Below, in pieces: positions 26,928 through 28,977 of a DNA stretch of 43,317 nucleotides (its first letter is position 1; every line of letters begins with the position of its first letter). A program made the position numbers and the translations under genes. The stretch lies in IMG/VR virus record IMGVR_UViG_3300043783_000100, positions 1-43,317 of that record; one strand, given 5' to 3'. This stretch comes from a virus. The notes beneath the pieces are model-generated. The model searched no databases, had not been told where the DNA came from, and saw nothing but the letters and a program-made list of their open reading frames with translations.

Positions 26928-27863
26928 TCACTGTTCCGCAGAAGTTAGCCGCTGACTGTTCATGATCGCGCGCCCGATGATTTCCGGGATTTGCGGGACG
27001 ACAGCGTTGCCGAGGCTCCGCAGTCGGTCCACCCGAGCGGAAACCCCATGAGCCACTCGACCCACATCGGGTTCAATGCTCCACCAACTACTTGAGGAAG
27101 GCATTCGCCGGCTGTGCTGCCCGTCCGCTCCATTCGACTGCGGCCCGGATGACGATAGTCCCGCGCTGTCGGCGTTGGCATCAGAGCGGCACCGAGAAGC
27201 GTTGGGTTGCCCCGCATGTAGGTTTTTGATCCCCTCACGCCGTCCGCTCGAGCTGGCGTCGGCCACATCTTCACCGCCTGCGCCAAGTCCACTTGGACCT
27301 TGCTGCCATTGTGATAGGCCGACCGCCCACGCCAATCGTTGACATGTGCTACCGACCGGCCACCGTTCGGGACCATCGGAGTAGGCCACAATCCAGATTC
27401 GGTCTCGGATGTGCGGGGCACCAGCGGCGCAAGCTGGTATGCAGTGCCACTCCGCATCATACCCGAGCGTGGCCAAGTCTCTGAGAACACGGTCAAGCCC
27501 TCGACCAAGCAATGCTGCGACGTTCTCCACGACGATGTAGCGGGGTCGTAGCTCGCCAATAAGTCTGGCGTACTCTGACCATAGGCCACTGCGGCTGCCG
27601 TCAATGCCGCCGCCCTTTCCGGCGTGGCTAATGTCCTGGCACGGGAAGCCTCCACAGATGACATCGGCAGCAATTCCATCTGCTCGGAGGCGGTCGGCGG
27701 TAAGGGTTTTGACATCATCGTAGCAGGGGACGGTCGGCCAATGCTTTTTGAGGACCGCTCGGCAGAAGGGCTCGATCTCGCAGAACGCGACGGTTCGCAT
27801 CCCGGCTCTTTCGAGCCCGAGAGAGAAGCCGCCAATTCCTGAGAAGAGGTCGAGGACATTCAT
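26928..27863 (-). CDS. dcm: C5-cytosine DNA methyltransferase
   Basis: A 311-residue enzyme that would methylate C5 of cytosine using SAM, probably to protect phage DNA from host restriction. The motifs are all present in order: I, LDLFSGIGGFSLG (5-17); IV, GGFPCQDIS with catalytic C75; VI, VVENV (111-115); VIII, IRDRIW (152-157); X, LGNAVVPQ (284-291). The target-recognition region (about 165-262) is unusually rich in Ser, Gly and Arg (VADASSSGRRE, ANADSAG) and looks weakly structured. A second, same-strand ORF covers almost the whole gene (26960-27859). Target sequence cannot be read from the protein. Confidence 0.92.
   Translation of the reverse strand: MNVLDLFSGIGGFSLGLERAGMRTVAFCEIEPFCRAVLKKHWPTVPCYDDVKTLTADRLRADGIAADVICGGFPCQDISHAGKGGGIDGSRSGLWSEYARLIGELRPRYIVVENVAALLGRGLDRVLRDLATLGYDAEWHCIPACAAGAPHIRDRIWIVAYSDGPERWPVGSTCQRLAWAVGLSQWQQGPSGLGAGGEDVADASSSGRREGIKNLHAGQPNASRCRSDANADSAGLSSSGPQSNGADGQHSRRMPSSSSWWSIEPDVGRVAHGVSARVDRLRSLGNAVVPQIPEIIGRAIMNSQRLTSAEQ
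26960..27859 (-). CDS. Overlapping same-strand ORF in the methyltransferase gene (+1 frame)
   Basis: A 299-codon open frame that starts four bases after the methyltransferase ATG (ATGAATG) and runs without a stop almost to its end. Its product is not random-looking. It has DPATSSWRTSQ and FSETWPRSGMMRSGTAY near residues 105-140, then LVPRT, and three WPTP or MPTP phrases (LWPTPM, MWPTPARADG, MPTPTARDY). The end is LNPMWVEWLMGFPLGWTDC. I recall this set of phrases from annotated phage proteins, including some I believe stand alone, but cannot check that here. Either a real overprinted gene, or a shadow frame that looks conserved because the methylase is. Confidence 0.35.
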   Translation of the reverse strand: MSSTSSQELAASLSGSKEPGCEPSRSARSSPSAERSSKSIGRPSPATMMSKPLPPTASEQMELLPMSSVEASRARTLATPERAAALTAAAVAYGQSTPDLLASYDPATSSWRTSQHCLVEGLTVFSETWPRSGMMRSGTAYQLAPLVPRTSETESGLWPTPMVPNGGRSVAHVNDWRGRSAYHNGSKVQVDLAQAVKMWPTPARADGVRGSKTYMRGNPTLLGAALMPTPTARDYRHPGRSRMERTGSTAGECLPQVVGGALNPMWVEWLMGFPLGWTDCGASATLSSRKSRKSSGARS

Positions 27864-28185: not shown

Positions 28186-28314
28186 TCAGTCGAAATCCGC
28201 ACGATGGCGGATCATTTGCTTTTGGCCTTCGTGCCAACCGCGGCACCAGCCCGCAAGAAAGGCGATGGCGCCGATGGCCAGCATTCCGAAGATGAGGGGT
28301 TCTATGGTCATCAT
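28186..28314 (-). CDS. 42-residue membrane peptide
   Basis: ATG 28314 overlaps the stop of the SAM methyltransferase gene (TGATGATG). One transmembrane helix (PLIFGMLAIGAIAFLAGWC) precedes a charged tail (HEGQKQMIRHRADFD). The longer frame to 28467 lies inside the methyltransferase gene and is not needed. Role unknown. Confidence 0.5.
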   Translation of the reverse strand: MMTIEPLIFGMLAIGAIAFLAGWCRGWHEGQKQMIRHRADFD

Positions 28315-28775
28315 CAGACTGCCTTTGCGAATACCGACCAGCTCACGTCTTGCTTGACTTTGAAAAGAGGCCGAACTGGAAAGAGGCCCAAAACCTTTTT
28401 CAGCGGCTGGCTCCCGTTCGCCCATTTGAAGTGCAGCGTGCCCGAGCTCCGCAGTACCCGCCAGCATTCGTCGAAGCCCGCGCGAAGGGTCTGCTGCCAG
28501 TCACCCGATCTCATTTCCCCATACTTGGTGCGAAGGAATGACTTTGAGGGCGTATCCCTAATGATGTGCGGCGGATCGAAAACCACAATATCAAAGCATT
28601 CGTCAGGGAAAGGCAGCATGGTAAAGTCGGCGCACACGTCTGGTCTCACTTGCCAGTTTGGGCGAATTGGAATGGTGCCTTTTGGCAGAATGCGGCGATC
28701 AACATAGATCGTGTCGTCCCGGTTCTTGTCGAACCAGATGTGACGCCCCGCGCAAGTGGTGTCTAGAATCCGCAT
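28314..28775 (-). CDS. Class I SAM-dependent methyltransferase
   Basis: A 153-residue methyltransferase starting at ATG 28775, eight bases after the previous stop; upstream in-frame ATGs lie inside that gene. The SAM site is MRILDTTCAGRHIWFD, the acidic strand end IYVDRR, then FDIVVFDPPHI, the DPPH motif IV of amino-methyltransferases. The C-terminal FKWANGSQPLKKVLGLFPV completes the small fold seen in many phages. Substrate unknown: DNA adenine or cytosine N4 is possible, another target cannot be excluded. Confidence 0.75.
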   Translation of the reverse strand: MRILDTTCAGRHIWFDKNRDDTIYVDRRILPKGTIPIRPNWQVRPDVCADFTMLPFPDECFDIVVFDPPHIIRDTPSKSFLRTKYGEMRSGDWQQTLRAGFDECWRVLRSSGTLHFKWANGSQPLKKVLGLFPVRPLFKVKQDVSWSVFAKAV

Positions 28776-28782
28776 TTGCCCG

Positions 28783-28977
28783 TTAACTTGTTGAATTTGC
28801 CTTTTTGATTTCTTCGATCTGGCGGTTGATGTCCTGCTCCACGTGGCGCAGCGCGTCGCGAAACCCCTTGGCGTAAGAGCCCGTATCACCCTTTACCTCG
28901 GAGCGGACTTCGCGAACGATCTTCTTCGCCCCGCGAAGTCCGTAAGTATCCATGGCGTTCCAGTATTTGCCCAACAT
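28783..28977 (-). CDS. Small charged helical protein
   Basis: A 64-residue protein with AGGA nine bases before the ATG. Highly charged helices (YGLRGAKKIVREVRSEVKGD; RHVEQDINRQIEEIKKAN), no cysteine, no membrane segment. It sits between the SSB-like gene and the SAM methyltransferase. Function unknown. Confidence 0.55.
   Translation of the reverse strand: MLGKYWNAMDTYGLRGAKKIVREVRSEVKGDTGSYAKGFRDALRHVEQDINRQIEEIKKANSTS

Follow-up and report, generated by a model that had tools for sequence, protein, structure and literature searches.

In the DNA cytosine-5 (C5) methyltransferase M.EcoHK31I, which recognises YGGCCR, the gene for the large chain, alpha (about 309 amino acids), contains the coding sequence of the small chain (about 176 amino acids) in a different frame, and M.EaeI is of the same two-polypeptide type. 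Multispecific C5 methyltransferases of Bacillus phages contain several tandem target recognition domains (TRDs), each with its own target, whereas M.HhaI and M.HaeIII are monomers in which a single chain comprises the catalytic core, the TRD and motif IX. Two-chain C5 enzymes are already known from restriction systems: M.EcoHK31I consists of two polypeptides, with motifs I–VIII and X on the large chain and motif IX on the small chain, and M.AquI of two chains divided after motif VIII (PMC3404938). A literature search for overlapping phage cytosine methyltransferases found no description, most subscription journals lying outside that search. Here we analyse a virus contig of 43,317 bases (the window) in which one locus very probably encodes a heterodimeric C5 methyltransferase similar to M.EcoHK31I, using one message in two frames. 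Both frames are conserved and under purifying selection. The new elements are the breadth of the family, the measured two-frame constraint and a natural series of nested, split and fused forms, together with the small subunit as the probable site of the TRD.

The locus is an overlapping pair of ORFs on the minus strand, and both frames proposed in the initial annotation were confirmed from the sequence. Frame 0 (26928–27863; 311 amino acids), hereafter alpha, encodes a C5-methyltransferase core with motifs I–VIII and X; the +1 ORF (26960–27859; 299 codons) opens four bases later, in ATGAATG, and frame +2 contains 11 stops. Alpha matches phrog_363 (PHROGs) and, over residues 1–163 only, Pfam PF00145 (DNA_methylase; 147.7 bits, E = 7e-43), and its AlphaFold2 model has a confident catalytic core that Foldseek matches to M.HaeIII and M.HhaI. 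The catalytic PCQ of motif IV (27636–27644; C75 and Q76), the ENV of motif VI and the GN of motif X are invariant in alpha alignments, motif X reading GNAVVP (26994–27011) with G285, N286 and P290 all invariant. Motifs I, IV, VI, VIII and X of the C5 core are present in alpha, whereas the same-chain TRD and motif IX of M.HhaI and M.HaeIII are absent. Residues 192–272 (27048–27290), the usual C5 site of both elements, have a pLDDT of <50 throughout, and the model predicts an alpha without a folded TRD and with a floppy segment in its place. Motif IX is encoded in the +1 frame.

This division of motifs (I–VIII and X against IX) is that published for M.EcoHK31I, a likeness of architecture. The nesting of the small chain, beta, in another frame and the chain sizes (311 amino acids for the window alpha and 171–278 for betas of the family) are also similar. 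Unlike in M.AquI, where motifs IX and X share the small chain, motif X of the window is on alpha and beta lies inside alpha. PHROGs lists the two halves of the window enzyme, matched by phrog_363 and phrog_1008, as separate 'DNA methyltransferase' families, with their overlap unrecorded. A second predicted DNA methyltransferase (28314–28889, minus strand; phrog_954, E = 1.8e-50) is located about 450 bases upstream of alpha, and the few neighbouring genes inspected included no recognisable restriction endonuclease.

The openness of the +1 frame was compared with shuffles in which frame-0 codons were swapped among synonyms, keeping the frame-0 protein and codon usage. For the window, 0.1% of shuffles attain a +1 run of 299 codons, the mean of their longest runs being 126. 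Across 171 homologous loci, the mean +1 run is 254 codons versus 125 in shuffles, and runs of 180 codons or more occur in 164 loci for the +1 frame and in none for the +2 frame; around half of these loci were retrieved with the +1 protein as query, so that openness is a selected property there, and the other half with the frame-0 protein. No +1 excess was detected in 150 other genes (89 codons versus 86 in shuffles) or in E. coli dcm (88 versus 109), and significant +1 openness was seen in none of 11 genomic C5 enzymes, these being the loci with a usable ORF among 23 (the ORF finder gave none for the other 12). Scored against a beta family profile built without the window, the real +1 frame reaches 306.7 bits, compared with a maximum of 153.6 in 300 shuffles.

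These comparisons bear on the alternative that the +1 ORF is a conserved shadow frame, kept open but not translated, as a side effect of alpha protein conservation, base composition and codon bias. Against the beta profile, synonymous shuffles of the window have a mean score of 103 bits, and the N-terminal +1 similarity is, to that extent, partly inherited from alpha. Yet the observed openness exceeds that of the shuffles, including at 45–50% GC, where shuffles almost never attain it; neither other genes nor most of the other C5 enzymes examined show it; only within the limits of beta is the +1 frame constrained; and beta persists without alpha overlap in the split loci described below. For the +1 frame as a whole, we consider a shadow origin very unlikely. 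The initial annotation had offered it as the alternative to a second protein, and it holds for that part of the N-terminal similarity and, as set out next, for a set of repeats in alpha.

Selection in each frame was measured by sorting changes between close relatives (46 independent pairs) as silent or not in either frame, with dSN/dSS denoting alpha-silent, beta-altering changes relative to changes silent in both frames. Inside the overlap, dSN/dSS is 0.35 (0.30–0.41), with values of 0.34 (0.28–0.40) at 190–480 nt of alpha, 0.36 (0.27–0.48) in the variable region of the WPTP blocks and 0.37 (0.23–0.57) at motif IX. Outside it, the ratio is 0.82 (0.67–1.04) in the first 145 nt of alpha, 0.78 (0.49–1.27) at 145–190 nt and 0.86 (0.65–1.24) past the beta stop, and over the overlap the contrast weakens to 0.71 (0.63–0.81) when +2 is taken in place of +1. 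Suppression of synonymous variation had been expected of a real second protein; alpha-silent changes that hit beta are indeed suppressed inside the overlap, and neither before nor after it. Together with the existence of non-overlapped homologues, this bears out the claim of two genuine same-strand proteins. Alpha is less constrained than beta over the variable region, at 0.58 (0.47–0.74), so the frame-0 'VADA' repeats look like a shadow of the beta WPTP blocks. That the two share DNA was correctly recorded in the initial annotation, but its reading of the VADA repeats as the recognition region of the methyltransferase gives way to that of a beta shadow.

The same measurements place the beginning of beta. 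Constraint sets in about 190 nt into alpha, near position 27680, which makes a start at 27859, as first proposed, unlikely and probably wrong; the first 60 or so of the 299 codons are without clear constraint in relatives, and the corresponding segment (27680–27859), with the dSN/dSS values given above for the first 190 nt of alpha, is probably untranslated. Start codons preceded by Shine–Dalgarno (SD) sequences are enriched in the +1 frame of relatives at 130–205 nt (34 versus 10.4 and 35 versus 15.5 expected), with no excess beyond 275 nt. Judged from these patterns, beta of the window probably starts near 27679 or 27664, each an ATG; 27718 and 27715 are possible but lie upstream of the constrained part, and none of the window's own candidates has a strong Shine–Dalgarno sequence. 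The most likely extent is 26960–27679 (239 amino acids from ATG 27679), on the basis of the phrog_1008 match, the constraint and the SD-plus-start enrichment in relatives. The enrichment of internal start signals in the +1 frame also argues against programmed frameshifting, in which some ribosomes would shift +1 within alpha to yield an alpha–beta fusion and no separate beta. Such a product would be without motif X in the nested layout, and although two relatives (L004 and L175) are natural fusions with motif IX in the alpha frame, we regard frameshifting as unlikely.

What beta is can be approached through its sequence. The +1 product contains SSWRTSQ, WPRSGM, three WPTP/MPTP blocks (WPTPM, WPTPA and MPTPT; 27170–27388) and LNPMWVEWLMGFPLGWTD (27023–27076), the last nearly invariant in the beta alignment. 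As had been noted from the sequence, LNPMWVEWLMGFP and EPDVGRVAHG of alpha lie on identical bases, from 27076 downwards. The best-conserved stretch of the beta alignment is LNPxWVEWLMGxPxxW. Beta matches phrog_1008, labelled 'DNA methyltransferase' (E = 3.5e-32); the +1 product matched no family in Pfam or NCBIfam, a sequence-profile comparison of beta with the PDB gave no match, and its AlphaFold2 model (pLDDT 60, pTM 0.30) had no structural match (VIA-align). Homology identifies LNPMWVEWLMGFPLGW as C5 motif IX, the link being provided by the Megaera plasmid enzyme L175, a protein covered end to end by Pfam. The alpha frame of L175 contains the beta-type motif IX as LNPDWVEWLMGYPISW, followed by LGNAVVP, and phmmer aligns this region of L175 with LHPRECARVMGYPDSY...FGNSVV of M.HhaI as a weak second domain (5.5 bits) that sits in the correct order after the strong first domain. 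Motif IX is likewise fused beside motif X in the alpha frame of PFR1 (L004). The second frame posited in the initial annotation is, in short, real as a protein-coding sequence, and what was missed is its identity as motif IX and the probable TRD region of the same enzyme.

Natural variants carry this argument further. An alpha core was found in 255 of 259 loci and is arranged with a nested beta, as in the window, in 245 of the 255. Four loci (L002, L006, L177 and L178), from Mycobacterium phages Anthony and Ovechkin, Streptomyces phage Samy and Arthrobacter phage Andrew, are split: alpha terminates after motif VIII, beta extends 556–901 nt beyond the end of alpha, and the old alpha frame under this extension holds 5–7 stops. 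Most of the beta coding sequence is unoverlapped in these loci, which therefore provide the homologue free of an overlapping methyltransferase frame that the initial annotation had looked for. At their ends, split betas have a motif IX-like sequence and a motif X of the GNGV type, phrog_1008 groups them with nested betas, and the division after motif VIII, with IX and X on the small chain, resembles that of M.AquI. Since alpha ends after motif VIII, the TRD of the split enzymes can only be in beta. The TRD of the family is probably on beta, within the WPTP-block region. The evidence from the window family differs here from the published account of M.EcoHK31I, in which the predicted TRD is placed on the large subunit (PMC3404938). 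Most betas have 1–5 xTP repeats by a simple pattern count, the number of blocks being variable; the split-type beta of phage Ovechkin (L178, 1477–2748) has about seven LPTP blocks, which could form a modular recognition region.

A group of C5 methyltransferases from Firmicute phages (L266–L345; 74 scored) was first taken as a monomer control. Motifs IX and X are kept in frame 0 of these enzymes, motif IX being canonical in 61 of 74, and yet a +1 ORF covers the catalytic motifs (about 90–574 nt of each gene) with a mean of 166 codons versus 65 in shuffles (p < 0.05 in 73 of 74). This ORF is itself constrained, with w of 0.44 (0.34–0.62) at 190–480 nt and 0.77 (0.65–1.01) downstream. The group was dropped as a negative control for that reason, and the genomic C5 enzymes took its place. 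A frequent ending of the +1 ORF, matched under a strict pattern in 27 of 74, is SLSDILEE..V..KYFLS, which resembles an in-frame element after motif VIII in the Halomonas enzyme L348.

A constrained +1 ORF beside a complete frame 0 is what would be expected if beta were real but an independent overprinted gene, such as a regulator or anti-restriction protein, and not an enzyme subunit; that no fold could be assigned from the beta model is also compatible with this reading. It is nonetheless very improbable, given that beta carries the methyltransferase motif IX, which adjoins motif X in L175, that only beta can provide TRD, IX and X in the split loci, and that the window alpha is without a folded TRD. 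Returning to beta as an enzyme subunit, the Firmicute-phage ORF exists without transfer of TRD and motif IX, and the overlap over motifs IV–VIII may therefore predate that transfer. We tentatively raise the possibility, which we hold as somewhat less than probable, that dual coding on one strand arose early and is the general condition in a large part of the phage C5 methyltransferases, with a constant N-terminal beta domain over motifs IV–VIII and a sliding boundary beyond it that places on beta only the element after motif VIII (Firmicute phages), TRD and motif IX (window type) or TRD, IX and X (split type). If so, target recognition would reside in repeated WPTP blocks that can be re-assorted as modules.

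We propose that alpha folds as the SAM-binding catalytic domain (motifs I–VIII) and adds motif X after a floppy linker, and that beta, initiating at its own internal start codon about 145–200 nt into alpha, brings the WPTP-block region, taken as the TRD, and motif IX. The two chains would be translated from one message and assemble into a single enzyme, as in M.EcoHK31I and M.AquI (PMC3404938), which would methylate DNA at a site chosen by beta. Protection of phage DNA from restriction is a probable role, since this is an orphan phage enzyme.

The nested arrangement, described for a few restriction–modification enzymes, is common in phages, and annotation usually records one frame. Pfam and NCBIfam name the frame-0 gene a methyltransferase, yet this gene appears to be without motif IX and a target-recognition region; both seem to be encoded by the other frame, which is assigned to a separate family or left unannotated. 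An expression clone with frame 0 recoded would lose the partner, and the enzyme made from it could be inactive. The family is also a large natural resource on overlapping genes of one strand, with nested, split and fused versions, and the question why both halves of a split enzyme stay on one stretch of DNA becomes testable with it.

In terms of spread, 265 phage records have a beta match and at least 597 stretches of viral contigs encode a relative, with further relatives in bacterial genomes, plasmids and one archaeal MAG; a search of E. coli genomes for an M.EcoHK31I-like copy gave a partial DNA match in 4 of 5,426. Among individual relatives, L240 has motif X in the +1 frame, and L238 shows matches in several frames, perhaps owing to a tandem copy or an assembly error. 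On the Roseicitreum plasmid pRA03 (L265, 1415–2677), the CDS annotated as 'DNA methyltransferase' (1931–2680) is the beta frame, and the overlapping alpha is unannotated. The alpha encoded on the Methylorubrum extorquens AM1 megaplasmid (L176, 2089–3021) has an extra Cys-rich insertion, CECGWRGTKARRNCPACRRDL, in its catalytic half, inside the beta overlap.
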